A stretch of 22,105 bases of DNA, taken from IMG/VR virus record IMGVR_UViG_3300048838_000684, positions 1 through 22,105 of that record; one strand, 5' to 3'. Positions within the stretch are counted from its first letter, which is position 1. Every line of letters begins with the position of its first letter. The translations under genes were made by a program, and so were the position numbers. The notes under the pieces were generated by a model that saw nothing but the letters and a program-made list of their open reading frames with translations, was not told the DNA's origin and made no database searches. This stretch comes from a virus. This document shows positions 2,364 through 20,780 of this stretch, piece by piece.

Positions 2364-2408
2364 GAACCGCCGCTTGACTTCCGATGCCAGATGGCCGATA
2401 GTGGCAGC
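2346..2408. promoter_or_regulatory. Candidate operator half-sites in divergent control region
   Basis: GCTGCCAC at 2346-2353 lies within the spacer of the leftward promoter. Its perfect inverted copy GTGGCAGC at 2401-2408 overlaps the rightward -10 element. Extended to 16 bases the two sites agree at 12 positions. A third, weaker TGCCA lies at 2384-2388 inside the rightward spacer. Positioning on both promoters is what one expects for the binding sites of the neighbouring small repressor. Binding is inferred. Confidence 0.4.
2374..2402 (+). promoter_or_regulatory. Rightward early promoter
   Basis: TTGACT at 2374-2379 is followed after exactly 17 bases by GATAGT at 2397-2402, a good housekeeping-sigma promoter for such a GC-rich genome. 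Start would be near 2409, about 90 bases before the ATG at 2499. It should drive the long rightward operon that includes the recombination genes, and it overlaps candidate repressor half-sites. Confidence 0.6.
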
Positions 2409-7722: not shown

Positions 7723-7983
7723 CCGCAGAGGGACTGGCGACCCCGCATGTGAAACCGACACCGGTAGCCGGACGACCCCTCGGACCTGTCGCCGTTACAA
7801 CATCGAGACAATGACAGCGCCGTTCGGCCCGGTGCGACAGTTACACCCCCGCCCGTTTTGCTGAAAAGCGGGCCTCGACGATGTTGACGCACCGCCGAGG
7901 CCCTGGACCGCACCCAACTTGGGATCAGGAGCGATCGTGATGCGCGTATCGGAGCGCCCCGCGCCGGGGCTGGAGGCTGGGCC
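7723..7983 (+). other. Structured non-coding gap after ssb
   Basis: This is the largest gap in the window and contains no convincing long gene. It holds CTGTCGC (7786-7792) pairing with GCGACAG (7834-7840). A second hairpin runs at 7851-7873 (GCCCG-TTTT, loop GCTG, AAAA-G-CGGGC, one bulged G). A third joins GGGCCTCG (7870-7877) to CGAGGCCC (7896-7903), sharing four bases with the second, so the two are mutually exclusive. CCCAACTTGGG is a short palindrome at 7913-7923. There is no U-run for a classical terminator. At 7772-7799 lies a degenerate copy of the late motif (CGACCCCTCGGA). Candidates are an attenuator, a small RNA or an origin-like region. Confidence 0.45.
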
Positions 7984-7987
7984 GTGA
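7937..7987 (+). CDS. Possible 16-codon leader peptide
   Basis: A tiny frame opens at GTG 7937 (followed at once by ATG 7940). AGGAG at 7927-7931 is at good spacing, and the frame ends at a TGA that overlaps the next gene's GTG as GTGA, exactly the junction used by real genes here. It lies just after the pair of overlapping hairpins, where a translated leader could influence the downstream gene. The peptide (MRVSERPAPGLEAGP) shows no run of a regulatory amino acid. It may simply be fortuitous. Confidence 0.28.
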   Translation: MMRVSERPAPGLEAGP

Positions 7988-8328
7988 TGCGGCTCGGGGA
8001 CTCGTCGTGGTGGCTGTCGATCGAGTCGAGCGGCGAGGCCTGGCTGCTGCACCAGGTGATCGCCGGCAAGCGACCGCGGACGGTGCGTGTGGGTCGGTAC
8101 ACGTCGTGGCGGCACTGCCTGCAGGCGATGGAGAACGCGCCGAAGAGCCGGAAGGTGCCGAAGGAGGTTCTGCGCGCGCTGCGGGACCTTGTGGGTGCGA
8201 CGGAGGCTGGCGGGGAGTACCTCGGGGAGTTGCCGGGCGAACCCTCGGAATCTTCTGGCGCGGTTGGGGACGGTGCATCTCGCACTGACCCCCAACCCCC
8301 CGAGGACGATGACGAAGGCAGCGAGTGA
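7984..8328 (+). CDS. Hypothetical protein (about 114 aa)
   Basis: The start is GTG 7984 or ATG 7987, with GGAGG at 7972-7976 suiting either. The first half is aromatic and strand-forming (SSWWLSIESSGEAWLLHQVI). Then come basic residues (GKRPRTVRVGRYTSWRHC) and a helical part (KVPKEVLRALRDLVGATEAG). The C-terminal third is acidic and low in complexity, ending EDDDEGSE. Its 3' part contains a copy of the repeated late motif (8237-8260) and overlaps the next gene by 20 bases, so this DNA is used for coding and possibly regulation at once. No family is recognised. Confidence 0.6.
   Translation: MMRLGDSSWWLSIESSGEAWLLHQVIAGKRPRTVRVGRYTSWRHCLQAMENAPKSRKVPKEVLRALRDLVGATEAGGEYLGELPGEPSESSGAVGDGASRTDPQPPEDDDEGSE
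8237..8260 (+). promoter_or_regulatory. Late motif, copy at 8237 (inside coding sequence)
   Basis: GCGAACCCTCGGAATC followed by TTCTGGCG matches the copies at 11535, 18344 and 20735 over the core GCGAACC-N2-C-R-GAATC. Here it lies within the reading frame of the gene at 7984-8328. It precedes the coiled-coil gene, 56 bases before its ATG at 8309 or 20 bases before a possible in-frame GTG at 8273. The region after the core does not match the other copies. Confidence 0.5.
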
Positions 8329-9781
8329 GGCGGCGAGTTCCCCCTACCTGAGCGACGAGTCCCTCCGCAAGTACGCAGAACGCGGCGCGTACGCGATGAG
8401 GACGATGGCGGCCGAGATCCTGCGGCTGCGGCAGGACGTGGCGCTATGGAAGAAGCTGACCGAGGAGGCGCTGACCAGCGTCATGCACGCGCACGAAGCG
8501 CTCGAGGCCGCTGGGATCCCCAAGATGCTGCTCGAGAAGCGGGTGGCGAAGCTGGTCGAGCACCGCGACGAGCTGCGCTTGGAGCGCGACGCCACTCTCG
8601 TCGCGGGCCAGGAGTGGGAGCGCCAGGCGAAGGCGACCCCTGACGTCGCCTCGCGCGAGCGGTGCATCGACCTGCTGACCAAGGCGCTGGGCAAGACCCC
8701 GGCGACGGTGTCCGAGGGCATCGAGCTGCTGACGATCGATCTGGCCGAGACCCGCGTCGACCGCGACATCAAGGTCGAGAACCTGACGCGGGAGCGTGAC
8801 GTGGCGCGATCCGAGCTGCTTGCTCGGACCCTCGAACTCGGATCGAGGACAGCCGCCATCGAGGTGGCGCACGACGCGCTCGACGATGCCGGCGTCACCC
8901 GCGATGGCACCGGTCCCGACACTCTGCCGCTGCTGCTTTCCGAGCGTGTGGACCGACTCACCAAGCAGCGCGATGACCTGCGATTCGAGCGCGACGCCTG
9001 GCGCCGGGAGGCGGGGTACGCGCCGCGTCCCGCTGCGAACGCCGCCAAGTCGGACGGCGACGACAGCAGCGAGCTGTCGCAGCTGCGCCAGGCGCTGGGC
9101 CTGCTGTCGACGCTGGCGCCGTCGCTGGTGATGGACACCGCCGACCCGCTGGGGATGGCGAAGCGGATCGAGGCGATGGTCCGCGGGCAGGTTGCTCGCG
9201 CCGAGAGGAAGCGTGACGCGGCCGTCGCCGACGTCGGCGAGTACGACAAGATCCGCGAGGCCCTGCAGGCGACGTGCAAGGTGCACGGCAAGCGCGGCGA
9301 GGAGTCGTTCGTGTCGTTCGTCGAGCGGCTGGCGCAGGAGCGCGACCGGATGCGGTTCGAGCGCGACATGGCGATGCGCGGCGGGTCGAAGTCGTCGCCG
9401 ATGCCCGAGGTCCGCGACGAGCCGCTCGCCGGCACGGGCGGGGGTGTGCAGATGCCGGGCGGGGCGATGATGCAGCGTCGTTTCCCTGACGACCCCTGCC
9501 CCTACGACCTCGGCGGCCGAGCGAAGGCAGCCGAGGCGAAGCTGGCCGAGGTGCAGGACCGGCTTGTGACCATCGCCGGACGCCGCGACCAGTGGCGGAA
9601 GCGGGCGGAGAAGGCCGAGGCGGACTGCCTGGTGGCGCGCAAGGTGTGCGGCGCGATCGCGGGCGTCACCAAGCTCATCGAGGGCGCGGCGCGGAAGGTC
9701 GCGCCCAAGCAGCCGGGCGAGACGTCCGGCGAGGCGCCGCCGGCCTGCGGCGTGGCGCAGAAGGCCGCGGAGGCGCCGTGA
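8309..9781 (+). CDS. Coiled-coil repeat protein (490 aa)
   Basis: This long, highly charged Arg/Glu/Asp/Ala protein has heptad-like patterning through most of its length, so an extended coiled coil is likely. It carries recurring units: a helix motif H-x-ALxxAG (62-69, 188-195), then LEKRVAKLVEHRDELRLERD (75-94), LSERVDRLTKQRDDLRFERD (210-229) and FVERLAQERDRMRFERD (337-353). This points to internal duplication with the signature R-V-x-x-L-x3-R-D-x-L-R-x-E-R-D. The C-terminal part has another RDQWRKRAEKAEAD unit and a Cys. The ATG at 8309 gives an overlap with the previous gene. GAGGA lies very close to that start. No enzyme motif. A scaffold-like or structural role is possible but unproven, and it is not next to the head genes. 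Confidence 0.7.
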   Translation: MTKAASEAASSPYLSDESLRKYAERGAYAMRTMAAEILRLRQDVALWKKLTEEALTSVMHAHEALEAAGIPKMLLEKRVAKLVEHRDELRLERDATLVAGQEWERQAKATPDVASRERCIDLLTKALGKTPATVSEGIELLTIDLAETRVDRDIKVENLTRERDVARSELLARTLELGSRTAAIEVAHDALDDAGVTRDGTGPDTLPLLLSERVDRLTKQRDDLRFERDAWRREAGYAPRPAANAAKSDGDDSSELSQLRQALGLLSTLAPSLVMDTADPLGMAKRIEAMVRGQVARAERKRDAAVADVGEYDKIREALQATCKVHGKRGEESFVSFVERLAQERDRMRFERDMAMRGGSKSSPMPEVRDEPLAGTGGGVQMPGGAMMQRRFPDDPCPYDLGGRAKAAEAKLAEVQDRLVTIAGRRDQWRKRAEKAEADCLVARKVCGAIAGVTKLIEGAARKVAPKQPGETSGEAPPACGVAQKAAEAP

Positions 9782-10050
9782 GCGACCTTCCCCACTGGCG
9801 CGACGCGCGCATCGTTCTTGGGCCTCATGGGCACAGCGAGTTCACCATCACGGACTGCCGCGGGAACCGGGTCGAACTGCCCGTCAAGTCCGTGCGCATC
9901 GACCTGGAGGCTGACGGGGTTGCGTCCGCGACCCTAGTTCTCGACGGCGTTCGTGTCGACGCGAGGGTGATGCAAGTTTCCTTGGATGCACTGAACGAGC
10001 CGCCCGAGATCGAGGACAAGCCGCAGGTCGCCGAGGACGGTGCGCCGTGA
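9778..10050 (+). CDS. Hypothetical beta-rich small protein (90 aa)
   Basis: The GTG at 9778 overlaps the previous TGA as GTGA. The 90-residue product has alternating hydrophobic residues throughout (ARIVLGPHGHSEFTITD, VRIDLEADGVASATLVLDG, VRVDARVMQVSL), so it should fold mostly as beta strands, followed by an acidic tail. No Cys cluster, membrane segment or signal peptide. A longer reading in the same frame upstream overlaps the coiled-coil gene and is rejected. Small all-beta proteins of this type occur among phage accessory proteins. No family can be named. The stop overlaps the next GTG. Confidence 0.6.
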   Translation: MSDLPHWRDARIVLGPHGHSEFTITDCRGNRVELPVKSVRIDLEADGVASATLVLDGVRVDARVMQVSLDALNEPPEIEDKPQVAEDGAP

Positions 10051-10223
10051 GGTGTCGCCGATGCCCTTGGTGCGGCGGTGTCTACGACGCCGTCGAGCTT
10101 GATGGGATCGACGCCGACGGTGCACCGAACGAGCCGTGCGCGTGCGGCGCGTTCGAAGCGGAGCCTGATGCCATCGAGAGACACGAACGCGGGGTCGCCG
10201 CCAGCATGGGGATCGACCCGTGA
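10047..10223 (+). CDS. Small zinc-ribbon-like protein (58 aa)
   Basis: A short frame runs from GTG 10047 (overlapping the prior TGA) to TGA 10221-10223, which in turn overlaps the next GTG. The peptide has four or five Cys in two groups: RCRRCPWCGG near the start (Cys3, 6, 9) and PCAC at residues 32-34. This is a zinc-ribbon layout. The acidic helical tail is AFEAEPDAIERHERG. The perfect GTGA junctions on both sides and the clustered Cys support a real gene. It resembles small phage zinc-finger proteins of unknown function. Confidence 0.55.
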   Translation: MRCRRCPWCGGVYDAVELDGIDADGAPNEPCACGAFEAEPDAIERHERGVAASMGIDP

Positions 10224-10960
10224 TCACCACCCCCGCCGCCCGCCCCTTCCAGCTCGACGCCATCCTCGCGTGCGAGCGCGACGGGCACCCGGACTTCGCC
10301 TGGGTGCCGACGTGGGGCGACCTCGGCTACGAGGAGTGCACGCGGTGCGGCGAGAGCCGCTGGCACGGCCGGCTGCAGGACCGCGACGCCGTCTTCCGGG
10401 CGGGCCTGTACCACCGGCGCGCCGGGTGGAGCGAGTGGCTGGTGCCGTTGGTCGAACTAGTCGCCCAGCAGGTCGTCGAGACTGATGATGCCGCTTGCGG
10501 CCACAAGCCGCGTCAGGCCGTCGGCTGCTTCCTGGAACGAGACCCCGCACGCGGCGATTCTGCGCAGGACCAGTATCAGGGCCTCGGTGTCGCTCATGCC
10601 GCGCAGCATACAGCCACGCTGCGGGCGATGCGTGAGCGCAGCACCGACCCTGCGTTCGCGCACGGACCGGACGGCATGTGGATCGACGGTGTCGAGCGCA
10701 TCCACGACAAGGACGGTCGCGGCTACATCGAGCGCGGGCCCGGCAACCGCATCGCGATCTGGACCGGGCCGGCGCATGGGGTGAGCGTTCCCGCTGCCCG
10801 GCGCGGCCCCGGCGGCTCCCGCCCGCGCAACCCCGACCGCGACGCCGCCATCATCGCCGCGCTCGGTGAGGGCCAGCGCCCGACCGACATCGCCGCCAAG
10901 TGGGGCGTGTCGCCGTCGCGCATCTCCCAAATCGCCAAGAAGGCGCGGAGGAGCACGTGA
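10220..10960 (+). CDS. HTH protein upstream of sigma factor, with odd middle segment
   Basis: The open frame from GTG 10220 gives 246 residues. Residues 1-80 include a C-x2-C pair (ECTRCGE) and aromatic sequence. The C-terminal 45 residues are a good helix-turn-helix (RDAAIIAALGEGQRPTDIAAKWGVSPSRISQIAKKARR) of the sigma-region-4 type. The middle, about residues 81-136, is unlike a protein segment: 14 of 46 third positions are A/T, against far fewer on either side. On the opposite strand this same stretch encodes a better-looking small gene (10457-10597). So either one protein carries an antisense gene, or the true second gene starts near ATG 10629 and encodes only the HTH part. The stop overlaps the sigma gene's GTG. 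Confidence 0.5.
   Translation: MITTPAARPFQLDAILACERDGHPDFAWVPTWGDLGYEECTRCGESRWHGRLQDRDAVFRAGLYHRRAGWSEWLVPLVELVAQQVVETDDAACGHKPRQAVGCFLERDPARGDSAQDQYQGLGVAHAAQHTATLRAMRERSTDPAFAHGPDGMWIDGVERIHDKDGRGYIERGPGNRIAIWTGPAHGVSVPAARRGPGGSRPRNPDRDAAIIAALGEGQRPTDIAAKWGVSPSRISQIAKKARRST
10457..10597 (-). CDS. Probable small antisense gene (46 aa)
   Basis: This leftward frame from ATG 10597 to TAG at 10457-10459 encodes 46 residues: a helical, amphipathic sequence with TEALILVLRRIAACGVSF, then EAADGLTRLVAAS, and an acidic end SLDDLLGD. Thirty-nine of 46 codons end in G or C, against 32 of 46 for the opposite frame over the same bases, so the coding signal favours this strand. The sequence looks like a folded helical miniprotein rather than a shadow. 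A TATGCT lies about ten bases before the ATG, but there is no Shine-Dalgarno site. It is one of only four leftward genes proposed here. Function unknown. Confidence 0.45.
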   Translation of the reverse strand: MSDTEALILVLRRIAACGVSFQEAADGLTRLVAASGIISLDDLLGD

Positions 10961-11532
10961 CGCCGACGGAGTTGTTCGACGCCAACCAGGCCCTGGCGCT
11001 CTGCGTCGCCAACAAGTTCGGCCGCCGCATCGACTTCGCCGTGGGCCTGGAGTTCGAGGACCTGCAGCAGATGGCGATGCAGGGGCTCTGGCACGCGTCG
11101 CAACGGTTCGACCAGTCGCGGGGCCTCCTGTTCTCGTCCTACGCCTACGGGTGCATCCAGGGCTACATCCTTCGCGGCATCAACCAGTTCCGCTACGGCG
11201 GCTCGCCGAAGGCCGTCAGCAACCTCGACCACACGAAGGTGCGTGCGACCGAGCCGGGTGAGTTGATGCGCGTCGCCGGGACCGCATCGGACGACGCGTT
11301 CGCGGCGGTCGTCAGCGCCGAGTCGGTCGACTTCGTGCGGGACGCGATCGACGAGCTGCCGGAGAGGCACGCCGCGGTCATGCGCATGCACATGCTCGGC
11401 ATGAAACGGCCGGCGATCGGGGCCGTGCTGGGGATCTCCCGCGAGCGGGTCCGGCAACTGATGATCGCGGCGAAGGCGAGGGTGCAACGACGCATTCGGC
11501 TCGTGGCGCCGACGCTGGCGGAGGCGGGGTAA
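10957..11532 (+). CDS. Phage sigma-70-family RNA polymerase sigma factor
   Basis: This 191-residue protein would direct host RNA polymerase to phage promoters. Region 2 is clear: LEFEDLQQMAMQGLWHASQRFDQ is split here as residues 31-40 (EFEDLQQMA, core binding) and 41-53 (QGLWHASQRFD). It is followed by GLLFSSYAYGCIQGYILR (56-73), the -10-recognising and melting helices. Region 4 spans about 125-180, with ELPERHAAVMRMHMLGMKR (133-151) and the helix-turn-helix AIGAVLGISRERVRQLMIAA (153-172). A weak region 3 lies between. No region 1.1 is present. It uses GTG 10957 with GGAGGAG at 10947-10953 and overlaps the HTH gene upstream. The repeated motif begins two bases past its stop. By analogy with T4 gp55 or SPO1 gp28 it is likely the late-gene switch. 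Confidence 0.83.
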   Translation: MTPTELFDANQALALCVANKFGRRIDFAVGLEFEDLQQMAMQGLWHASQRFDQSRGLLFSSYAYGCIQGYILRGINQFRYGGSPKAVSNLDHTKVRATEPGELMRVAGTASDDAFAAVVSAESVDFVRDAIDELPERHAAVMRMHMLGMKRPAIGAVLGISRERVRQLMIAAKARVQRRIRLVAPTLAEAG

Positions 11533-11534
11533 CG

Positions 11535-11560
11535 GCGAACCATCGGAATCCCCGTTGACA
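11535..11560 (+). promoter_or_regulatory. Late motif, copy at 11535
   Basis: The core GCGAACCATCGGAATC is followed by CCCGTTGACA. Over 26 bases it differs from the copy at 20735 at only two positions. It fills the 38-base gap between the sigma gene and the large exported protein, starting two bases after the sigma stop. From the end of GAATC it is 20 bases to ATG 11571, or 29 to ATG 11580, the latter matching the spacing at the other late genes. TTGACA resembles a housekeeping -35 box, but no -10 box follows. Confidence 0.65.
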
Positions 11561-11570
11561 AGGCGGTCGG

Positions 11571-14500
11571 ATGGCCACCATGCAACGAGCTGTCCACGTC
11601 GCCCGCAACCTGCTGCCGGGCGTCCCGAACTTCTTGCTCGGGCTGGTGATCACCGCCCTCGCGCTCTGCGCAGCCGTCAACGCACAGACCGTGCGGGTGG
11701 CCAACTACTCGCACCTGCCCTTCGACGGCTGGCACCGCACGACGGTCGACACGAAGCCGGCACACGCAGCCGGCACGCTGCCAGATGGCACCCGCTACGT
11801 CCTGGGCCGGCAGCTCGGCCTGGCGGTCTGGGCGGTCGACCTGCACCTGACGATGACGCCGGGCGAGGAGCGGGCCGTGCGCCTCGAGCTCGCGACCGCG
11901 TCGCCGCCTCCTGCCCTGCCGCTGCCGGGCGACCCGATCGGCCACTTCGGCGGCTGGGCGACCTTCGGTGGCGTGCCCATGTCGATCATCGGCCTGGAGG
12001 CAGACGGCGCCGCCTGGAACGTCCATCTGCGTAGCCGCGTGGGCCGCACGTTCGTGTGCGACGTGTGGCTTGACTGGCGGCCGGACGAGCCGTGGCTGGC
12101 TGCCGGCGAGATCCTGCTGACCTCGAGCAACCCGTCCGTCCCTGACGTGATCGAGGCCGTGCCTGCTGGTGGGCTGGCGTTCAGCTTCGGCGATGGCATG
12201 GTGTTCGGCAACCAACCGGCCGTTCCGGGTACTTCGTTCGCCGATGGCCAGGGCCGCGCGACGCCCATCACGGTGGCGTGGCCGCGCCATGCGCCGAGCG
12301 GCGAGCGATGGCTGTCGACCGTGCCGGCGGCCGTGAACCTGACGACGTGCGCCGTTGGCATCGCCAGGCTGTGGCCCGGTGGCAACCCTCGGCTGCCTCC
12401 GGGCCTGAACACGGTGGCATGGACGCAGCAGAGGTGGAACGAGGCTCTGAGCCGCATGCGCAGTTGGGTGCCGGGTGTGATGGGAGCCAACGCCAGCAGC
12501 ACGGACACCGGCGCGCAGGGCGACCAAGTGTGGGTGGCCGGCGAGTGCATGGCAGGGCTCGGCCCGGAGAAGGTCGCCTACATCTCGGCCCTCAAGATGT
12601 TCGCGCGGCCGGCGCACCACCGGCGCCCGGACGGCTCGCTGCTGGACCCTGCCGTAGAGCATCCCGGCGTTCAGTTCTGGCAGGCTCGCCCGCACCAGCA
12701 GAGCACGCACGACCTGCTCGGCAAGGCACGCGGCATCGACTCGGTGGATACCAACGGATGGTGGGGCCCGGACCGCGAGCACTGGCTCTACAACACGGTT
12801 GCCGCAGCCGCGCGGCTCACGGGCTCGCGGGCGTTGCAGTGCGAGATGTCGCACCAGGCCCTGCTGTTCCTCGCCAGTGAGGTGCTTCCCGGTCCAGGCC
12901 ACGGCCAGTGGGTGACCGCCGGCCCGGACAGTCCGCGCGCCGTTGGCTGGGCCTGCCTGCTGGCGCTGCACCTGTGGCACGACCTGGAGGACCGGCCGCT
13001 TGCCGCTCGCGTGCGCCAGCGGATCATCGACCGCTTCCAGCAGGTCTACCTGCCGGCGTTCGGCTCGGCGCCCGGCGACGTGTGGGACGTGCGCACCAAC
13101 GACCCGCGCCTCGGCACCGGCTCCCGCTGGATGCCGTGGCAGCAGTCGGTCGGCGCCTACGGGCTCGACCGGCTGGGCGTGGCGTTCGGCATCCCTGCTG
13201 CGCGTGACCTCGGCCTGCGGGCCGCCAAGGCCGTCCTGCGGGACGCGGTCTACCAGACGGGCGGGCGGTGGCAGTGCTACAGCAACGTCGCCATCGACGG
13301 CGGGGTGCCCGAGCCATGGAACGGCTACTGGCTGTTCGGCATGCCGATGGCCGTCGCCACCGTGCTCGCCCACGAGCCGCAGAACGAGAAGGCCAGGGCC
13401 GTGTGGGCGCAGATGCTGGTGGACGCCGTGCAGCCGGGCGAGGTGTCGTGGCTGCCGCCTGAGACCGTGCTGGCACCCGTTCAGCAGACCGGCGCCACGA
13501 GCGTCACGCAGCGCGGCATCACCTGGACGTTCGCCTCGGCGCGGCCCGTGGGCCAGTTCTGCAACGGCGACTGGTGGGTGGTCGGGCCGGTGACGGTGAC
13601 GGGCATCACGCCGGGGCTGCAGACCGCGAACGGACGCACCACCGGCGGCAGCATGCTCAACCCGCTCCCGCTCGCCAGCGGCCGGCAGGGCTATGACTCG
13701 CATCTGTTCGCGCCCTACCTCGGCGACGAGACGGGACAACCGCGCTGGCGTCCCGAGATGTCCCTGCAGGTCCCGGCGACCATCACCACGGGCAGCATCG
13801 TCTCGACCGTGCCGCAGTTCGGCCCTGCCGGCGACCAAGTGTCGGTGCTCAAGACCGCGTGCGTGCTCACCGTGCTCGCCTCTGCGCCGCCGGCCGATGC
13901 CTTCCGGCCAGCCTACGCCGGCACCGATAAGAGCATCCCGGCCGTTTTGAGCGACGTGGATTGGAGCGCGCTCCAAACTCTGGCGCCGGCACCCGGCATG
14001 CCCGACATGGCGGCGACGCTCGCGCGCTTCCAGGGCAGCGTCTGGCTGGACCACTTCCCGAGTTGGACCTCGCGCTACATGCACCCGGTTGACGGGCTGC
14101 CGGACTACTACCGGGGGTTCTCGACCGTCATCGGCAACGCAGCCCTCGCGGTCAACTGCTCCGGCGTACCGGCAACCGTTAGGCAATCGCTAACAGTTGC
14201 CCTGTGCCAGATGGGCATCGACAACCACCGCCACATGCAGCTCGGCGCGCGCTGGGGCGTCAACGGCCACTGCAACGGCCGCAAGTTCCCGATCCTGTTC
14301 GCCGGTCGCATGCTCGGCGATGCCGAGATGTTGTCTGCCGGCGTCACCTACGCGCCCACGATGACGCGGCCCGGCGGCCCCGGCGTCGTGCCGTTCAGTG
14401 AGGACGGGCAGACGTTCTACGTGCGCGAGACCTCGCCCGGCGTCTTCAACTGGGGCTTCGGCGGCTACACCGAGGCGCACGTGGGCCTGCCCGAGTGGGG

Positions 14501-14771
14501 CAACTTCCACCTGACCGGCAGCCCGACCGACTATCGCGAGTGGGCGAACGGCGCAGGCGACTACCGGCGCTGTTGCTCGGCGAACGGCTGGGCCGGCGTC
14601 ACGCTCGCCATGCGCGCGATGGCGCTACGGGACGCCTGGAATCAGCCGGCCTACTTCGATTACATGGACCGCTACATGCAGACCGAAGGCGGCCCTGGGA
14701 CGACCGAGTGGACGCGGGCCTGGGAGCCGTGGCAGGCGCGCATGTGGGACATGCACAGAGGAGGCTTGTGA
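11571..14771 (+). CDS. Very large exported protein, candidate (alpha/alpha)6-type carbohydrate-active enzyme
   Basis: This 1066-residue product is the largest in the window. Residues 1-38 look like a signal peptide: basic start, hydrophobic core FLLGLVITALALCAAV, cleavage likely after VNA. Residues about 40-230 are strand-rich (GHFGGWATFGGVPMSI, CDVWLDWRPDEPWLAAGE). A large central and C-terminal part is helical, with repeated Trp/Gly motifs: WNGYWLFGMPMAVATVL, NGDWWVVGPVTVTG (about 665-678), QGYDSH, MGIDNHRHMQLG and NGHCNGRKFPILFAGRML (about 899-916). The layout of a beta domain and helical toroid recalls polysaccharide lyases and related enzymes. The WWVVGPV and GRKFPILFAG blocks recall uncharacterised exported Planctomycetota proteins, from memory only. 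Catalytic residues not identified. Start could be ATG 11580. Overlaps the next ATG. Confidence 0.8.
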   Translation: MATMQRAVHVARNLLPGVPNFLLGLVITALALCAAVNAQTVRVANYSHLPFDGWHRTTVDTKPAHAAGTLPDGTRYVLGRQLGLAVWAVDLHLTMTPGEERAVRLELATASPPPALPLPGDPIGHFGGWATFGGVPMSIIGLEADGAAWNVHLRSRVGRTFVCDVWLDWRPDEPWLAAGEILLTSSNPSVPDVIEAVPAGGLAFSFGDGMVFGNQPAVPGTSFADGQGRATPITVAWPRHAPSGERWLSTVPAAVNLTTCAVGIARLWPGGNPRLPPGLNTVAWTQQRWNEALSRMRSWVPGVMGANASSTDTGAQGDQVWVAGECMAGLGPEKVAYISALKMFARPAHHRRPDGSLLDPAVEHPGVQFWQARPHQQSTHDLLGKARGIDSVDTNGWWGPDREHWLYNTVAAAARLTGSRALQCEMSHQALLFLASEVLPGPGHGQWVTAGPDSPRAVGWACLLALHLWHDLEDRPLAARVRQRIIDRFQQVYLPAFGSAPGDVWDVRTNDPRLGTGSRWMPWQQSVGAYGLDRLGVAFGIPAARDLGLRAAKAVLRDAVYQTGGRWQCYSNVAIDGGVPEPWNGYWLFGMPMAVATVLAHEPQNEKARAVWAQMLVDAVQPGEVSWLPPETVLAPVQQTGATSVTQRGITWTFASARPVGQFCNGDWWVVGPVTVTGITPGLQTANGRTTGGSMLNPLPLASGRQGYDSHLFAPYLGDETGQPRWRPEMSLQVPATITTGSIVSTVPQFGPAGDQVSVLKTACVLTVLASAPPADAFRPAYAGTDKSIPAVLSDVDWSALQTLAPAPGMPDMAATLARFQGSVWLDHFPSWTSRYMHPVDGLPDYYRGFSTVIGNAALAVNCSGVPATVRQSLTVALCQMGIDNHRHMQLGARWGVNGHCNGRKFPILFAGRMLGDAEMLSAGVTYAPTMTRPGGPGVVPFSEDGQTFYVRETSPGVFNWGFGGYTEAHVGLPEWGNFHLTGSPTDYREWANGAGDYRRCCSANGWAGVTLAMRAMALRDAWNQPAYFDYMDRYMQTEGGPGTTEWTRAWEPWQARMWDMHRGGL

Positions 14772-15052
14772 TGGCGGCGCGAAAGGTGTGGAAGTTCCCC
14801 GTCTTTGCCAACGACAACGTGATGATCCCTGCCGGAGCGCGGATCCTGATGATGGCCACACAGCCGCAGGGGTGGCACCTATGGGCAGAGGTGGACCCTG
14901 AGCAGCCAAAGGTCGCGAGGCGGGTTGCCATCATCGGGACCGGGTGGGATGTGCCGGAGAATCACACGCACATCCATTCGTGGATCGACGGCTACTTCGT
15001 GTGGCACGCCTACATTGAAGACGAGCCGGACATGCACCGGGGGGCGCTGTGA
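14771..15052 (+). CDS. Small phage protein of DUF7352-like type
   Basis: A 93-residue product starts at ATG 14771 (or GTG 14768) with a very strong ribosome site, AGAGGAGG at 14757-14764. The pattern is distinctive: KVWKFPVFANDNVMIPAGAR at the start, then ILMMATQPQGWHLWAEVDPE, RRVAIIGTGWDVPE and YFVWHAYIED. I recognise this order (K-x-W-K-F-P, P-x-G-A, G-x-x-x-L-W-A-x-V-D-P, I-x-G-T-G, V-W-H) from small phage proteins grouped as DUF7352, whose function is unknown. It is beta-rich and soluble. It immediately follows the large exported protein and begins a run of small genes. Confidence 0.65.
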   Translation: MAARKVWKFPVFANDNVMIPAGARILMMATQPQGWHLWAEVDPEQPKVARRVAIIGTGWDVPENHTHIHSWIDGYFVWHAYIEDEPDMHRGAL

Positions 15053-15327
15053 TGCTGACCGAGGCGAAGGCATGGGAGAACGACGCGCTCCACCTCGCGC
15101 ACTGCGGGCTGTGTGCGAACAGCGCCGTGCATTGCGCGTCCGGGCAGGCTGCGCGCAACGAGTGCTTCGAGGGCGAGTTCGTGCCGCCCACCCGCGACCC
15201 CGCTCTGCGCAAGGCGGCGCTGGATGCCGACCGAGCCCTCGCGCGATGGCAGGGCAGCAGCACGAATGCGGACTACGACGCCTTCTGCATGGCCATGGAC
15301 GCGCTGCGGGAGGAGTTGGCGAAGTGA
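15052..15327 (+). CDS. Small Cys-rich hypothetical protein (91 aa)
   Basis: The start is ATG 15052, or GTG 15049 which overlaps the preceding TGA as GTGA. An N-terminal Cys/His cluster (LHLAHCGLCANSAVHCASGQ, about residues 14-33, then NEC) looks like a small metal site. The remainder is helical and charged (RDPALRKAALDADRALARW and FCMAMDALREELAK). The end is encoded by a 19-base sequence that recurs at the end of the next gene and includes that gene's ribosome site. Similar Cys-headed helical proteins occur early in the window. No family recognised. Confidence 0.6.
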   Translation: MLTEAKAWENDALHLAHCGLCANSAVHCASGQAARNECFEGEFVPPTRDPALRKAALDADRALARWQGSSTNADYDAFCMAMDALREELAK

Positions 15328-15542
15328 CTCCACAAGACCAAGCCACCGCGAACAAGCTCCGCAAACTGCGCGAGACCTACGAGGCCGAGCGCAGCCGGAT
15401 CCTCGACGATCACATGGCGAAGCACTACCCAGGCAAGGACGGCCTGTGGATCCGCGCGGTGCGCGCGTCCATCGAAGTGGAGAGTTGGCCGGAGTGGAAG
15501 CGGCGCGCGTGCTACGCCCAGTCGGAGGAGTTGGCGAAGTGA
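15309..15542 (+). repeat. 19-base direct repeat at two gene ends (15309-15327 and 15524-15542)
   Basis: GGAGGAGTTGGCGAAGTGA occurs exactly twice, at 15309-15327 and 15524-15542. Each copy encodes the C-terminal EELAK plus stop, supplies GGAGGAG as a ribosome site, and contains the GTG of the following frame in the GTGA overlap. It works as a ready-made gene junction and may mark a past duplication or recombination point. Confidence 0.7.
15324..15542 (+). CDS. Small helical hypothetical protein (72 aa)
   Basis: A GTG at 15324, inside the GTGA overlap with the previous stop, follows GGAGGAG at 15309-15315. The product is highly charged and helical: TANKLRKLRETYEAERSRIL, then a middle segment HMAKHYPGKDGLWIRAVRAS and a Trp/Arg-rich end SWPEWKRRACY. 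The composition suits a small dimeric helical protein, possibly nucleic-acid-binding, but no motif settles this. The C-terminus EELAK and stop are encoded by the second copy of the 19-base junction repeat. Not recognised. Confidence 0.6.
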   Translation: MTPQDQATANKLRKLRETYEAERSRILDDHMAKHYPGKDGLWIRAVRASIEVESWPEWKRRACYAQSEELAK

Positions 15543-15598
15543 GCCAATCGCAAACGAGCGATAACCGCCCACAACGCGCCCAAACCGATCACCTATGA
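15539..15598 (+). CDS. Possible 19-codon mini-gene
   Basis: A frame from GTG 15539 to TGA 15596-15598 encodes 19 residues (VSQSQTSDNRPQRAQTDHL). Its GTG sits in a GTGA overlap behind the GGAGGAG of the junction repeat, and its TGA overlaps the next ATG as ATGA. It therefore bridges what would otherwise be a 52-base gap with two perfect junctions. Third positions are much less GC-rich than in neighbouring genes, so the peptide may matter less than keeping ribosomes moving through the operon. Confidence 0.35.
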   Translation: MSQSQTSDNRPQRAQTDHL

Positions 15599-15777
15599 GC
15601 ACCATGCGCAAACAAGTCACATGGACCATCACCTCCGACACCGACGTGCCGCTGCGCGACCTGCGCAAGCCCGTCGCCGTGATGGTGCGCGACGGCCACC
15701 TCGCCGTCGAGGTCGAGACGGTCAAGACGCGGTGGCGCTACGTGCCGGAGATGGCGAAGCGGAGGAAGGGCAAGTGA
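15595..15777 (+). CDS. Small basic hypothetical protein (60 aa)
   Basis: Sixty residues from ATG 15595. Alternating hydrophobic residues (KQVTWTITSDTDVPL, PVAVMVRDGHLAVEVETV) predict a small beta fold, and the end is strongly basic (AKRRKGK). It starts in an ATGA overlap with the mini-frame upstream and ends in a GTGA overlap with the membrane-protein gene. A positively charged tail next to a membrane-protein gene could suggest RNA, DNA or membrane contact, but nothing is diagnostic. Function unknown. Confidence 0.6.
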   Translation: MSTMRKQVTWTITSDTDVPLRDLRKPVAVMVRDGHLAVEVETVKTRWRYVPEMAKRRKGK

Positions 15778-15968
15778 CCGCAACCGACTGGATCTTCCTC
15801 GCCACCTCATCCACCCTCGTGGCCCTCGTCCTGTTCTTCGCCGTGCAGGCCGCGCGCTGGCGTCGCCTCTACGTCGCGTCCCTGCGCATGTGGGCCGCCG
15901 ACAAGCTCCTGCGCCACCTGCAAGACGCCGAGCGGGAGACGGCCCGGCGCTACACGTCAAGGAACTGA
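15774..15968 (+). CDS. Small single-span membrane protein (64 aa)
   Basis: The start is GTG 15774 in a GTGA overlap. Residues 5-27 (DWIFLATSSTLVALVLFFAV and on) form one clear transmembrane segment. It is followed at once by a basic stretch (RWRRLYVASLR) and a helical, charged C-terminal part (KLLRHLQDAERETARRY). The positive residues after the span would place the C-terminus in the cytoplasm by the positive-inside rule. The size and layout resemble phage holins or spanin-like proteins. However, only one span is present and no endolysin gene is adjacent, so a lysis role is a guess. Confidence 0.6.
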   Translation: MTATDWIFLATSSTLVALVLFFAVQAARWRRLYVASLRMWAADKLLRHLQDAERETARRYTSRN

Positions 15969-16213
15969 TGCCCTACGACTTCGCCGAGCTAGAGCACCTG
16001 CTCAACGTCGTCCAGGAGGTCGCCGACGACTGCGGCCGGTCGCGCCTGCACATCATCGTCACCAACAAGGACACCGACGAACGCCGCGAACTCTCGGCCG
16101 CCTACCACCCGCAGGAGTTGGCCAGCCAGATCCGCGAGGCGCTGCGGCGCTCGGCGCAGGTCGATGCGCTGGTCACGCTCGGCCGCGCCATCGTGCAGGC
16201 GGAGGCCGAGTGA
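15968..16213 (+). CDS. Small hypothetical protein (81 aa)
   Basis: ATG 15968 overlaps the previous TGA. The product is helical at both ends (FAELEHLLNVVQEVADD and QIREALRRSAQVDALVTLGR) with a short strand region in the middle (RLHIIVTNKDTDERREL), giving a plausible alpha-beta-alpha miniprotein. No Cys cluster, membrane span or catalytic motif is visible. The stop overlaps the next GTG as GTGA. Not recognised. Confidence 0.6.
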   Translation: MPYDFAELEHLLNVVQEVADDCGRSRLHIIVTNKDTDERRELSAAYHPQELASQIREALRRSAQVDALVTLGRAIVQAEAE

Positions 16214-16479
16214 GCAGGGCCACGAAGCGAGGGCGGTCCATCGCCGAATACGCCAAGACGGCGAAACGGCCGCCGAGCAAGCGGTGCTCCACCTGCCGCG
16301 ACAAGGTGCTCGCGGCCCACGTCCTCGACTTCATCAAGCTGCGCGAGTCGCCCGAGCACCGGACGTGGCAGACGTGGCCGTGGTTCCGCGACTTCCTGCG
16401 CGACGAGCACGGTATCGACGTGGTGAGCGTGACGACGCTCTACAACCACATTCGCAACTGCCTGGGGCGCACATGGTGA
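16210..16479 (+). CDS. Small basic protein with HTH-like C-terminus
   Basis: This 89-residue product starts at GTG 16210. The first 15 residues (SRATKRGRSIAEYAK) closely resemble the start of the next protein (VKRTKKGRNLTEYLA). A C-x2-C pair (CSTC) follows. Then come a helical segment (KVLAAHVLDFIKLRES) and a Trp-rich region (TWQTWPWFRDFLRDEHG). It ends with VSVTTLYNHIRNCLG, which looks like the recognition half of a helix-turn-helix. The protein is probably DNA-binding, and a later C-terminal Cys could complete a metal site. It overlaps the metallophosphoesterase gene by seven bases, so the two are likely made together. Family not recognised. Confidence 0.6.
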   Translation: MSRATKRGRSIAEYAKTAKRPPSKRCSTCRDKVLAAHVLDFIKLRESPEHRTWQTWPWFRDFLRDEHGIDVVSVTTLYNHIRNCLGRTW

Positions 16480-17792
16480 AGCGCACCAAGAAGGGCCGCA
16501 ACCTGACGGAATACCTCGCCGCGCCCGAGAACGTCATCAAGAACGAGCGCGAGCGCGCCAAGCTCCAAGAGCGCAAGGCACGCGAGGCCGCGCGGCAGGC
16601 GCAGATCCTCGCCGGCAAGCGCAAGACGCCGCCGACCGTCGAGGACATGCTCGCCGACATCGTCCGCGTGGCCGAGGATCCCGACAGCAACCCCATCGGC
16701 CACACCACGCGCAGCATCAGCCGGGCGCGCTACGAGCAGTTCGGCCACTTCCCTGTCCTGTTCGTCGACCGGCAGTTCGGCCAGTGGAACCACGCGCTGG
16801 GAGCCGCCGGCCTGCGCGACAAGGTGGGCACACAGCTCTGGCGCCGCAACAGGGCCAAGGAATCGCGCCGCGAGCACGCGCAACGATACTTCGAGCGCCA
16901 CGTGCTGCCGTACGTCGCGCACCAGGAAGACTATCGCCGGCTGCACAAGCCATACCTGCTGCTGTCCATCAGCGACCTGCACGCGCAGTGGCTGTGCCCG
17001 TTCGTGTTCTCGGCGTTCCTGCAAGCCATCCGCGACCTGCGGCCAAACGGCGTGCTGGTCAACGGCGACTGGATCGACGGCAGCGAGATCAGCCGGCACC
17101 AGAAGATCCCAGGGTGGACGGTGCCGCTGGTTGACGAGTTGTCGTTCGCGCGCGCGATGTTCCGCCGCATCCGGCAGGCGATGGGCGACGATGGCGACCT
17201 GTTCGTAGTCGACGGCAACCACGACCCGACGACGCGGCTGGCCAACTACCTCGCGCACGTAGCGCCCGCCATCGCCAACATGCCCGAGCTACGGGTTGAC
17301 AACCTGCTGGGCCTCGGCGATGCCGGCGTGCGCATCATGCAGGGCGGTTCGATCCTGTCGCCGAAGGGCCAGGAGGACGCGAAGCCCGGGTTCCTGCTGT
17401 GGGACTTCTACCGCATCCACCACGGCACACGGCTCGGCTCGGACCCGGCACGGCTCGAGCTCCGCGACGCCGGCCGCAGCGGGCAGAGCGGGCACGTGCA
17501 CCGCGCGTCGCTGGCGTTCGGCACCACTGAGCGCGACGAGGGCCTGTCGTGGATGTGCACGCCGATGGCGAGCCGGCACGAGGTCGGGCGGTCCTACATG
17601 CACGGCACGACCACGGGCTGGCAGCGCGGGTTTGGCGTCGCCTGGCTCTACCCTGACGGGACGGTGCACCAGTATCCGGTGGTGGTCAGCGGCTCACCGG
17701 AGCGGATCACGGTCGAGGGCCACGTCTACACGCGGGCGAAGGGTGCGGACGACCCGGAGCCGCGGGGCAACTGGCTGGAGTTGGTGGCGTGA
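16473..17792 (+). CDS. Metallophosphoesterase with N-terminal DNA-binding-type domain
   Basis: This 439-residue protein has the complete calcineurin-like metal site: SDLH (167-170, Asp168 and His170), NGDWID (197-202, Asp199), GNHD (248-251, Asn249 and His250), HHG (316-318) and GHVH (340-343). It should be a two-metal phosphodiesterase or phosphatase. The substrate is unknown, though DNA or nucleotides are plausible. Residues about 53-113 (PTVEDMLADIVRVAED then RQFGQWNHALGAAGL) match the shape of the homing-endonuclease-associated repeat, which contacts DNA. A basic N-terminus (KRTKKGRNLTEY) is shared with the upstream gene, and charged helices link the parts. Start is ATG 16473. GTG 16476 is a close alternative. 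Confidence 0.85.
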   Translation: MVKRTKKGRNLTEYLAAPENVIKNERERAKLQERKAREAARQAQILAGKRKTPPTVEDMLADIVRVAEDPDSNPIGHTTRSISRARYEQFGHFPVLFVDRQFGQWNHALGAAGLRDKVGTQLWRRNRAKESRREHAQRYFERHVLPYVAHQEDYRRLHKPYLLLSISDLHAQWLCPFVFSAFLQAIRDLRPNGVLVNGDWIDGSEISRHQKIPGWTVPLVDELSFARAMFRRIRQAMGDDGDLFVVDGNHDPTTRLANYLAHVAPAIANMPELRVDNLLGLGDAGVRIMQGGSILSPKGQEDAKPGFLLWDFYRIHHGTRLGSDPARLELRDAGRSGQSGHVHRASLAFGTTERDEGLSWMCTPMASRHEVGRSYMHGTTTGWQRGFGVAWLYPDGTVHQYPVVVSGSPERITVEGHVYTRAKGADDPEPRGNWLELVA

Positions 17793-18094
17793 CCTTCGAG
17801 CACATGCTCAAGCGCCTGCGCGCGTCGGCGCCGCCTCTGCTGCCCGTCCGCGTCTACGTCCGCGACCGTCTCGGCGATGCCCTCGGCGACACGTCGCTGG
17901 AGCGCAAGGGCAAGCGCCCGTCACACTTCGTCATCCGCATCCGACGCGCCAGCCTGCAGGTCATGCGGGACACGCTGCTCCACGAGTGGGCGCACGCGAT
18001 CGCCTGGCGCGACGGACACGAGACCGTATGTGACCATGACCCCGAGTGGGCGCTCGCCTACTCGCGGGTCTACCAGTTGATCGTCGAACAATGA
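17789..18094 (+). CDS. SprT-like zinc metalloprotease (small)
   Basis: This 101-residue protein starts at GTG 17789 (GTGA overlap) and carries LLHEWAHAIAW, that is the HExxH zinc-protease motif at 65-69. A second His follows in CDHDPEW (His83), the typical spacing for the third ligand of SprT-like domains. The preceding strand region (SHFVIRIRRASLQVMRDT) also fits. It is shorter than full-length SprT and lacks the C-terminal zinc ribbon. SprT/Spartan enzymes cleave proteins cross-linked to DNA. In phages the target is not known. Its place beside the metallophosphoesterase suggests a DNA-processing set ahead of packaging. Confidence 0.78.
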   Translation: MTFEHMLKRLRASAPPLLPVRVYVRDRLGDALGDTSLERKGKRPSHFVIRIRRASLQVMRDTLLHEWAHAIAWRDGHETVCDHDPEWALAYSRVYQLIVEQ

Positions 18095-18333
18095 ACCCAC
18101 TGCACCACCCCGCCTTCCACCGCTTCGAGGCCAACGTCGCCAAACGCCTGTCCGCCGGTGTCGTCGAATACGGCGACGCCAGCATGCGCAAGCCGTCCGT
18201 CGCCCTCATCGAAGAGGTGCAGCAGGAACTGGAGGACGTGACCGGCTGGTCGGCGATCCTGTGGCTGCGCCTGGAGAACATCAAGGCGATGGCCGAGGCG
18301 GTGGATCCGGCGCCGCAGGAAGACTGCGCGTAG
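18091..18333 (+). CDS. MazG-like hypothetical protein (80 aa)
   Basis: ATG 18091 overlaps the previous TGA. The protein is helical and contains GVVEYGDASMRKPSVALIEE followed by a Glu/Asp-rich stretch EEVQQELEDVTGW (41-53). Phage MazG-like all-alpha NTP pyrophosphohydrolases have the same order: EYGD, then a helix with EE-x3-E-x2-D. These remove nucleoside triphosphates such as dUTP-like or alarmone substrates. The second acidic helix of full MazG is not obvious, and the protein is short, so activity is uncertain. It is the last gene before the late-motif copy at 18344. Confidence 0.5.
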   Translation: MNPLHHPAFHRFEANVAKRLSAGVVEYGDASMRKPSVALIEEVQQELEDVTGWSAILWLRLENIKAMAEAVDPAPQEDCA

Positions 18334-18343
18334 GCGAGACGTA

Positions 18344-18370
18344 GCGAACCCTCAGAATCCTGATTGCATC
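18344..18370 (+). promoter_or_regulatory. Late motif, copy at 18344
   Basis: GCGAACCCTCAGAATC then CTGATTGCATC lies in the 54-base gap between the MazG-like gene and the packaging module. From the end of GAATC it is 28 bases to ATG 18388, which lacks a strong ribosome site. At 20-25 bases past GAATC it shares GATGGC with the copy at 11535. Confidence 0.6.
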
Positions 18371-18387
18371 CGCTGCCTGATGGCGGC

Positions 18388-18795
18388 ATGACCGAGAACC
18401 AGGCCACCGAGGCAGTCCCCCAGACTCAAGCCGAAGCCCCACGCACGAAGCTGCTGCGCGTCAACATGCCGCAGCTCCTCGCGACGCTGGTCAACTACAC
18501 CGCGCCGGCCAACATCGCGCTCAACGTCGCCTTCGAGGAGCACCGCGATGCGCACCCGTCCGGCGACGCGATCGCCGATGTGCTGCACTTCCAGGCCGTC
18601 GAGCAGTGGTGCCATGAGAACCCGTCGGACGCCGCGCGCATCGTGCTCTGCGCCGTCTACCTCGCCAACGGCCGCTTCGTCGCCCAGGAGCAGATGCCGC
18701 CGGAAGAGCCCGATTCCGCCGCGACCGGAGAGCCGCAGCCGGAGGCGGAAGGCCAGGCCCAGCCTGCAGAGGGATCGGCCGCCGATCCCGGCTGA
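18388..18795 (+). CDS. Hypothetical protein, first gene of packaging module
   Basis: A 135-residue product. I chose ATG 18388. An in-frame TTG at 18364 lies inside the late motif. After a polar N-terminus rich in Gln/Glu/Thr there is a helical core: LRVNMPQLLATLVNYT, ANIALNVAFEEHRDA, IADVLHFQAVEQWCHEN and ARIVLCAVYLANGRF. The C-terminal 35 residues are a low-complexity acidic Pro/Glu/Ala tail. No family is recognised. Position directly before the small terminase suggests a packaging or head-assembly accessory. Its stop overlaps the terminase start as ATGA. Confidence 0.65.
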   Translation: MTENQATEAVPQTQAEAPRTKLLRVNMPQLLATLVNYTAPANIALNVAFEEHRDAHPSGDAIADVLHFQAVEQWCHENPSDAARIVLCAVYLANGRFVAQEQMPPEEPDSAATGEPQPEAEGQAQPAEGSAADPG

Positions 18796-19295
18796 TGCCG
18801 AGGAAGCCCAGGCCGAAGGGTAAGCCGAAGGGCGCGCCGCGCGGCAAGGACAAGCCGTTCACGGCCGACCAGCAGCGGGTGTTCCTGCAGCTGGTGTCCG
18901 CGACCATGTACCCGTCGGTCGCGGCAAGGCACGTTGGTGTCACGCCGCAGGCGATCAGCAACCGGAAGCGCCTAGACGAAGGGTTTCTGATCGCCTTCGA
19001 GCGGGCGGACGCCACCGCTGAGTTCAACCTGGTCGCGATCGTGCTGCGAGCAGCGCAGAAGGACTGGCGCGCGGCCATGCGGCTGCTCGAGTCTCGATGG
19101 CCTGAGCGTTGGGGTCGGCCGGAGGTGCGGGCGTCGTTCACGAAGGGGGACGCGTCCAAGGACATGGCCGAGCAGATGGTCGGCCTGCTGCAGGCTGCGG
19201 TCCTGACCATGCCGCTCCCCGACTTCGCCGACGGCGCGCAGCCGCAGAAGGTCGCAGAGCCGGCAGGAGACGCCGAGGACGCGAAGCCGGCATGA
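18795..19295 (+). CDS. Terminase small subunit (probable)
   Basis: The small subunit recognises the phage DNA and recruits the large subunit to start packaging. This 166-residue protein has a basic N-terminus (PRKPRPKGKPKGAPRGKDK) and then a helix-turn-helix (YPSVAARHVGVTPQAISNRK, about 39-58). Next come the helical oligomerisation-type region ERADATAEFNLVAIVLRAA and DWRAAMRLLESRWPERWG, a pattern typical of small terminases. The acidic tail is variable. It sits immediately ahead of the large subunit with an ATGA overlap, which strongly supports the call. Confidence 0.8.
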   Translation: MPRKPRPKGKPKGAPRGKDKPFTADQQRVFLQLVSATMYPSVAARHVGVTPQAISNRKRLDEGFLIAFERADATAEFNLVAIVLRAAQKDWRAAMRLLESRWPERWGRPEVRASFTKGDASKDMAEQMVGLLQAAVLTMPLPDFADGAQPQKVAEPAGDAEDAKPA

Positions 19296-20728
19296 TCGCG
19301 ACCGGTGCACGTCAGCAGATCGCGCTGCCGCAGAGGTGGTCGAAGCTGCGATACCACCCGGGCCAGCATCGGTTCATCAGTTCGACGGCACGATTCGACG
19401 TGCTCGAGGCCGGTCGCCGCAGCGGCAAGACCGAGCTGCCCAAGCGCATGGGCGTGCTGGAGGCGGTGCGCATGGGGCCCGTCTACCAGCAGAACGGGCT
19501 CACCTGGTACACGAAGTTCTGCGCGCCGACGCGCGACCAGTCGAAGTTCATCTACTGGGAGGATCTCAAGCGGCTGTCCGAGCCGTGGTGGGAGCGAGAC
19601 CCCAGCGAGAGTGACCTGCAACTGTTCCTTCGCGGCGGCGCGCAGGTCTGGGTCTGCGGCCTCGACAAGCCGGCGCGCATCGAGGGGTCGCCGGTCGACA
19701 GGCTCGCCGTCGACGAGCTGGCCGAGGTGAAGGACGGCGCGTGGGACCGCAACCTCTATCCGGCGCTCGGCACGCCAGGTCGGCTTCCGGGTCGCGCGTG
19801 GCTCTACGGCGTGCCGCGCCCAGGCGGCCAGTTCGCGAAGCTGGCGAAGAAAGCGAAGGATCCCACTGAACCGGACTACACGTACCACACGTGGTCGAGC
19901 GAGGGCATCGTCGAAGAGTCAGTGTTCCGGGCGGCGAAGCGCGGCGACCCGCTGATGTTCGCGCAGGAGTGGCTGGGCCAGCGCGTCAGCATGGAGGGCC
20001 GGGCCTACTACACGTTCGACACGGCCCAGAACCTGCGCACGCTCGAGTATCGCCCGAGCCTGCCGCTGCTGTTCTCGTTCGACTTCAACCGGGCTCCCGG
20101 CGTCGCCGTGGTGTCGCAGGAGCAGGCGCTCGCTGGGCTGCACGTTGGCTTCTGCGAGTCCTGTGGTGCGGAGGGTGCCGGGCTCTCCGGCGAGCCGTGC
20201 ACGAAGTGCCGCGCGCTGCTGCCGCTGGCCACCGCCACGTGCGTGATCGACGAGGTCCACATCGAGCGCGGAAGCAACACGCCGATGGTCTGCGTCAAGC
20301 TGGTCAACAAGTGGAAGCACCACGAGGGGCGCGTCATCTGCTACGGGGACGCCACCGGCGGCGCCAAGAAGACCAGCAGCGTGGAAGGCTCGGACTGGGA
20401 CCTGATCCGGCAGTACCTCGGCCAGGCGTTCCCACAGGCGGTCTACGACGTCGACAAGGCCAACCCGCCCGAGCGGGTCCGCGTCAACGCCGTGAACATG
20501 CGCGCGTGCAACGCCCTGGGGGAGCGCCGCTTGTTCGTCGACCCGCAGAAGGCGCCGAACCTCGCCCGCGACTTCGAGGAGCAACTGGTGCTCAGCGGCG
20601 GCAGCGGCGAGCTCGACAAGGACTCCGACAAGACCCTGGGCCACGCCGCAGACGGCATCGGCTACCAGATCCACAAGCTCTACCCGTCGGTCTACGGGGA
20701 CCTGGGGCTGACCTCGACGCCCATGTGA
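19292..20728 (+). CDS. terL: Terminase large subunit with inserted zinc ribbon
   Basis: TerL is the packaging motor: an ATPase pumps DNA into the procapsid and a nuclease cuts it. This 478-residue protein has Walker A GRRSGKT (41-47), Walker B LAVDE (138-142), and an RNase-H-like nuclease with FSFDFN (261-266, Asp264), CYGDATGG (350-357, Asp353) and HAADGIGY (451-458, Asp454). Inside the nuclease domain, between the first two Asp strands, lies CESC (288-291) plus CTKC (303-306), a four-Cys zinc ribbon that ordinary TerL proteins lack. Start at ATG 19292 overlaps the small subunit. An upstream extension in this frame is out of place and rejected. Confidence 0.92.
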   Translation: MIATGARQQIALPQRWSKLRYHPGQHRFISSTARFDVLEAGRRSGKTELPKRMGVLEAVRMGPVYQQNGLTWYTKFCAPTRDQSKFIYWEDLKRLSEPWWERDPSESDLQLFLRGGAQVWVCGLDKPARIEGSPVDRLAVDELAEVKDGAWDRNLYPALGTPGRLPGRAWLYGVPRPGGQFAKLAKKAKDPTEPDYTYHTWSSEGIVEESVFRAAKRGDPLMFAQEWLGQRVSMEGRAYYTFDTAQNLRTLEYRPSLPLLFSFDFNRAPGVAVVSQEQALAGLHVGFCESCGAEGAGLSGEPCTKCRALLPLATATCVIDEVHIERGSNTPMVCVKLVNKWKHHEGRVICYGDATGGAKKTSSVEGSDWDLIRQYLGQAFPQAVYDVDKANPPERVRVNAVNMRACNALGERRLFVDPQKAPNLARDFEEQLVLSGGSGELDKDSDKTLGHAADGIGYQIHKLYPSVYGDLGLTSTPM

Positions 20729-20734
20729 CCGGTG

Positions 20735-20760
20735 GCGAACCCCCGGAATCCCCGTTGACA
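20735..20760 (+). promoter_or_regulatory. Late motif, copy at 20735
   Basis: GCGAACCCCCGGAATC then CCCGTTGACA follows six bases after the terL stop in the 52-base gap before the portal gene. From GAATC it is 30 bases to GTG 20781. The nearly identical copy at 11535 lies 9.2 kb away, so this conservation outside coding sequence suggests selection. No -10 box follows TTGACA. Confidence 0.65.
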
Positions 20761-20780
20761 GTCGGCCAACGTCGTCGGGC

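Follow-up and report, generated by a model that had tools for sequence, protein, structure and literature searches.

A candidate late promoter element and a phage sigma factor gene in an uncultured, G/C-rich tailed phage

Gene order and the repeated element

The window analysed here, a virus record of 22,105 bases with 69% G+C, covers part of the genome of an uncultured tailed phage. Its relevant features are as follows.

2085-2363, − strand: small divergent ORF at the early promoter, without a family match
2374..2402, + strand: host-type sigma-70 promoter TTGACT-17-GATAGT, 5' of the early block
4153, + strand: YqaJ exonuclease, first in the + strand order given here
5076, + strand: RecT-like gene, named from its sequence
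5972, + strand: AAA ATPase
7255, + strand: SSB
8237..8252, + strand: element copy 1 (GCGAACCCTCGGAATC), lying in the 3' portion of ORF 7987-8328
8309..9781, + strand: 490-aa ORF, first gene past copy 1, without a family match
10220..10960, + strand: 246-aa protein with a C-terminal helix-turn-helix (HTH), overlapping the start of the sigma gene
10957..11532, + strand: phage RNA polymerase sigma factor, 191 aa, FliA/WhiG-like, with sigma-70 regions 2 and 4
11534..11560, + strand: element copy 2, full block GGCGAACCATCGGAATCCCCGTTGACA, 1 nt past the sigma gene's stop codon
11571..14771, + strand: 1066-aa ORF, first gene past copy 2, with a signal-peptide-like N-terminus and a second ATG at 11580
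16476, + strand: phosphoesterase
17789..18094, + strand: SprT-like protein, before the terminase genes
18344..18369, + strand: element copy 3 (GCGAACCCTCAGAATC...TTGCAT), in the gap 5' of ORF 18388-18795, itself 5' of terS and terL
18388..18795, + strand: 135-aa ORF, first gene past copy 3
18795..19295, + strand: terminase small subunit (terS; phrog_4102, 7.5e-14)
19292..20728, + strand: terminase large subunit (terL)
20734..20760, + strand: element copy 4, full block GGCGAACCCCCGGAATCCCCGTTGACA, in the terL/portal gap
20781..22103, + strand: portal protein (PF13264, 2e-22; phrog_145, 3.9e-70), first gene past copy 4, with an alternative ATG at 20799; it runs off the window

Small ORFs lie between the 1066-aa gene (11571) and the phosphoesterase gene (16476). 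The 1066-aa protein matches phrog_34846, of unknown function, and over the C-terminal 43% of its length it shares 33% identity with proteins from large Mycobacterium phages (Redno2 gp43 and others). The SprT-like protein is unusually conserved: in relatives with a TerL identity of only 46%, it reaches 66%. From 2300 onward, the promoter at 2374 is the only one of host type that we found; because a single match does not exceed the chance expectation, the argument for this promoter is its placement. The largest + strand gap past the early block (7723-7936) holds a TTGAC at 7884 without the element, as well as two inverted repeats (GCCCGTTTT..AAAAGCGGGC and GGGCCTCG..CGAGGCCC), and could be a terminator plus a middle promoter.

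An earlier note on this DNA had described four copies of an upstream element, GCGAACC-N2-C-R-GAATC. This exact pattern matched perfectly at 8237, 11535, 18344 and 20735, in all four cases on the + strand, and a scan of the window at up to 2 mismatches revealed no further copies; the 'weaker relative' that had been placed at 7772 differs at about 5 positions and did not enter our 3-mismatch list. The reported agreement between the copies at 11535 and 20735 (24 of 26 bases) was reproduced, and theirs is the best 26-mer pair in the whole window. The copy at 8237 has three neighbours at 15/16 identities. No 16-mer with three neighbours at 15/16 or better arose in any of 180 shuffled sequences (0/100 dinucleotide and 0/80 triplet shuffles). 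Real gaps between genes make up 573 nt, or 2.6% of the window, yet they hold three of the four copies, as had been claimed; the chance of this is about 7e-5, or 9e-6 when strand is counted, and the fourth copy (8237) lies inside ORF 7987-8328.

The copies head the gene blocks 8309-11532, which includes the sigma gene, 11571-18333, 18388-20728 and 20781 onward. Copies 2 and 4 are near-identical over a longer conserved block of about 27 bp, which runs from GGCGAACC through TTGACA and ends there; copy 3 has TTGCAT where these two have TTGACA, and no TTGAC follows copy 1. Between copy 1 and the ATG at 8309, within the final part of ORF 7987-8328, stands a strong hairpin (GGTTGGGG..CCCCAACC, window 8262-8298), and the surrounding region (8230-8320) has a fold z-score of −3.25. 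This could be a leader hairpin or a processing site.

GAATC stands 29 nt from the start codon at 11580, 28 nt from that at 18388 and 30 nt from that at 20781, in agreement with the earlier note, while copy 1 is 56 nt from the ATG at 8309. The note had also found no convincing ribosome site at starts that follow the element. This holds for 18388 and 20781 but not for 11571 and 8309, which have weak sites. Genes 15595, 18091 and 18795 have no ribosome site either, and they also have no element.

The sigma gene and the register of the proposed promoter

The most telling feature, which the earlier note did not include, is the sigma gene beside copy 2. Its stop codon ends at 11532, about 3 bases 5' of that copy (11535), and the gene itself belongs to the block headed by copy 1. 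The protein is recognised by Pfam (PF04542, 1.6e-8; PF04545, 4.7e-7), by the sigma70 superfamily model TIGR02937 over nearly its whole length (1.3e-17) and by phrog_351 (2.1e-27). Direct searches yielded no relatives of this sigma, and an AlphaFold model built from the one sequence was of low confidence (pLDDT 49). The recognition helix, SRERVRQ, aligns with TRERIRQ of the housekeeping SigA in solved structures, and in SigA these residues read TTGAC of the −35 box. The sigma factor is most likely the reader of the element. The 246-aa protein encoded just before it gave an HTH_23 hit below the cut-off (E 0.0014) and a match to phrog_6223 (0.004), and is a possible co-activator.

TTGAC is uncommon on the + strand of the window, with nine occurrences, and four of these sites (2374, 7884, 11555 and 20755) fall in gaps. 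Compared with all permutations of the word, the gap enrichment has a P of about 4e-4, which is somewhat flattering because two of the four gap sites belong to the near-identical copies. The earlier note had pointed to a T at 22 bases past GAATC, which we also see in all four copies, and had judged it too little to define a −10 box. We could define none either: no register gave a shared −10 hexamer, in a comparison limited to 4-5 copies and to a new sigma whose specificity was not known beforehand.

Two registers compete for the promoter. If GGAATC takes the −35 position, the 28-30 nt to the start codon fit a leaderless message, since with the usual 17-nt spacer this is, by arithmetic, the distance expected between the −35 hexamer and the start of a leaderless gene. 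That register comes without a visible −10 box and without support from the sigma helix. If TTGAC is instead the −35 box, the register agrees with both the SigA-like helix and the gap enrichment of TTGAC, and with a 17-nt spacer transcription would therefore start about 10 nt inside genes 11580, 18388 and 20781. Such a start is acceptable for the portal gene, which has the alternative ATG at 20799, and possible for ORF 18388, where the next ATG is at 18460. It is hard to accommodate for the 1066-aa gene, because the first residues of this protein look like a complete signal peptide. Leaderless or very-short-leader late messages are plausible: the annotated starts agree with the leaderless register, and the sigma helix points to the other one.

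Related phages and the downstream DNA

One contig of the same species, L005, is 99.8% identical to window positions 14868-22105 and runs about 7.35 kb further downstream. Because of this identity the copies that it shares with the window are not independent evidence, whereas the 7.35-kb extension is new DNA. We scanned the extension with a 16-column matrix built from the four window copies. The top match is a degenerate copy, GCGAACCCACGGACTT at L005:8885, in a 79-nt gap right past the stop of a Mu F-like head-morphogenesis gene and about 60 nt from the start codon of ORF 8962, which occupies the scaffold position ahead of a P22-type coat gene. Its score is modest, being matched by 8.8% of permuted matrices, or 19% in the 26-column form. 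The TTGAC at L005:8904, 3' of this match, is the only one on the + strand of that stretch. The expectation that further copies would precede other late genes was thus borne out once, by a degenerate copy.

Two other differences and features of this contig are worth recording. Between L005 4425-5847 and window 19292-20728, L005 lacks 11 nt inside terL, so that terL is frameshifted in one of the two contigs; either an assembly error or a real difference could account for this. A 260-nt gap before the major coat gene (L005 9829-10088) contains internal repeats, AAGTGCTGCAG and GAGAGGGATCCGCGC, each present twice, and has no Rfam match.

About 80 phages share this terminase type, the nearest TerL being about 46% identical; in genome contigs TerL is at most 42% identical. 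In the roughly 80 phages of this terminase type (1.02 Mb, up to 2 mismatches) the element gave 21 matches, 3 of them from L005, against 31 for a reversed control. Apart from the conspecific contig, none of these TerL relatives carries the element. Searching all viral contigs, we found the exact pattern in 113 stretches with one match each, a second copy occurring only in L005, and the longer pattern with TTGAC in 7 matches, of which the six besides L005 are single and lie in contigs of 39-58% G+C. We attribute both sets to chance.

In two syntenic relatives, L140 and L129, the position between recombination and packaging genes is also taken by a sigma gene, but a different one. They lack this element, and our search turned up no late element belonging to either, so a joint change of sigma and motif would be conjecture. 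De novo repeat searches in the sigma-bearing relatives G008, G003 and MW202657 gave no late-promoter-like family. G008 does have a start-associated repeat, AAAGGAAGACGACGATGA, in 3 copies (reverse-complement coordinates 4400, 4648 and 6981), with a similar family in G003; it resembles a ribosome-site repeat. As far as the collections show, the element appears confined to this lineage, which is what one expects from phage sigma/promoter pairs.

Interpretation and comparison with known systems

We favor, with moderate confidence, the explanation that the element is a late promoter family served by the phage-encoded sigma, giving messages with no or very short leaders. The promoter reading is supported because the element family is beyond chance, one-stranded and placed in gaps, with the sigma gene adjacent. 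It also upholds the family part of the earlier interpretation, given the sigma gene beside copy 2, the placement at block starts and the degenerate copy in L005. Against it stand the position of copy 1 within an ORF and without TTGAC, the lack of a shared −10 box, the degeneracy of the L005 copy and the fact that L140 and L129, the nearest sigma-bearing relatives, have no comparable late element.

Under this promoter reading, host RNA polymerase would read the early genes from the TTGACT-17-GATAGT promoter at 2374. The middle block would then yield the phage sigma, which would redirect host core RNA polymerase to GCGAACC-N2-C-R-GAATC(-N4-TTGAC) sites and so switch on the packaging and head genes; via copy 1, it would also switch on its own block. 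The first transcribed base might coincide with the start codon or lie no more than some ten bases away, leaving no or very short leaders, although this step is the weaker one. The upstream half of the block may be recognised by a second DNA-binding protein acting alongside the sigma, possibly the 246-aa HTH protein. More speculatively, the promoter could consist of two parts, with the SigA-like region 4 of a small two-domain sigma reading TTGAC and the HTH partner reading GCGAACC-N2-C-R-GAATC, to give leaderless mRNAs with no usual −10 and a sign that has changed completely between sigma-keeping relatives. We hold this elaborate version to be rather unlikely.

Several other explanations bear on the same observations. 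Activator-dependent late promoters have the activator site just upstream of the −35 box, and the element could be such a site, with a phage activator such as the 246-aa HTH protein binding immediately 5' of a TTGAC −35 that is read by a host or phage sigma. The block stops exactly at TTGACA in two copies, TTGAC is enriched in gaps, the HTH protein is encoded immediately 5' of the sigma and the CGAACC / CGGAATC halves of the element resemble a weak direct repeat whose spacing could suit a dimer. Nevertheless, we regard an activator site as unlikely, given that a 17-nt spacer would put the start about 10 nt inside genes 11580, 18388 and 20781, that copy 1 has no TTGAC and that no −10 box is seen. 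The element also looks like known stoperators in being a short, asymmetric repeat of single orientation in gaps, and the divergent ORF 2085-2363 occupies the spot beside the early promoter that one would predict for a repressor; a repressor site used across the late region in lysogeny is nonetheless very improbable, as an immunity operator should lie close to the early divergent promoter at 2374 and no copy does, that ORF has no family match and none of the proteins searched was recognised as an integrase.

The near-fixed 28-30 nt to the start codon at three copies, with a Shine-Dalgarno that is weak or missing at two of the three starts, could point to an RNA-level element acting in translation initiation. 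The copies have no common fold, the element has neither an Rfam match nor anti-SD pairing within it, and the start codon is 56 nt away from copy 1 and about 60 nt away from the L005 copy, making this role quite improbable. We give just as little credence to a neutral repeat without function that arose by recent duplication: two copies are near-identical across 27 bp, but the others have the core only, and all stand at the starts of gene blocks in one orientation. A sigma-54 promoter (GG-N10-GC) is the most improbable reading, to the point of being almost negligible. Copy 3 offers AG-N10-GC with its TTGCAT, and copies 2 and 4 offer GG-N10-GA, but no copy has both invariant dinucleotides and the phage sigma belongs to the sigma-70 family. 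Comparing sigma-54, ECF and SigR registers by eye, we found no consistent second box.

If the late-promoter reading is right, an uncultured G/C-rich phage would provide both a new sigma and the sequence that probably serves as its promoter, and late gene control in this phage group would become testable in vitro. The two could form an orthogonal sigma/promoter pair. Since the closest relatives keep the place of the sigma gene but not the element, the group could also serve the study of promoter-specificity turnover.

As a style of gene control this would be familiar in phages, and it is probably the recognition sequence itself that is new. Sigma factors of the T4 gp55 and SPO1 gp28 type redirect host core polymerase to later genes, as we propose for the phage sigma here. 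The promoter sequences differ: T4 late promoters consist of a −10 only and need the sliding clamp, and SPO1 promoters have other hexamers. ECF promoters (GGAAC-N16-CGTC) and SigR promoters (GGAAT-N18-GTT) have −35 boxes that GAACC and GGAATC in the element resemble. However, no CGTC or GTT stands at the required spacing across the copies, and the region 4 helix of the phage sigma is SigA-like.

Cluster K mycobacteriophages carry the SAS, which contains AGGAG in the ribosome-site position, and the ESAS, which is an inverted repeat (PMC3203893). Like these, the element is short and conserved, keeps one direction and precedes phage genes at scattered positions, close to their start codons. Unlike them, it is not an inverted repeat and is not in the ribosome-site position, with copies 28 to about 60 nt from the starts and no AGGAG or other Shine-Dalgarno-like core directly 5' of the start. 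Closer in arrangement are phiEco32 and Salmonella phage 7-11, which encode a sigma and repeat a well conserved phage motif a few times 5' of structural genes, while their early genes are read from host sigma-70 promoters (PMC4331800). Our phage likewise has a sigma-70-family factor and few motif copies, in the direction of transcription, 5' of late or structural genes. The motif of those two phages, TG-TGATGT-TATA, is A/T-rich and −10-like (PMC4331800), whereas the one described here is a G/C-rich 27-bp block that ends in TTGAC, with no recognisable −10.
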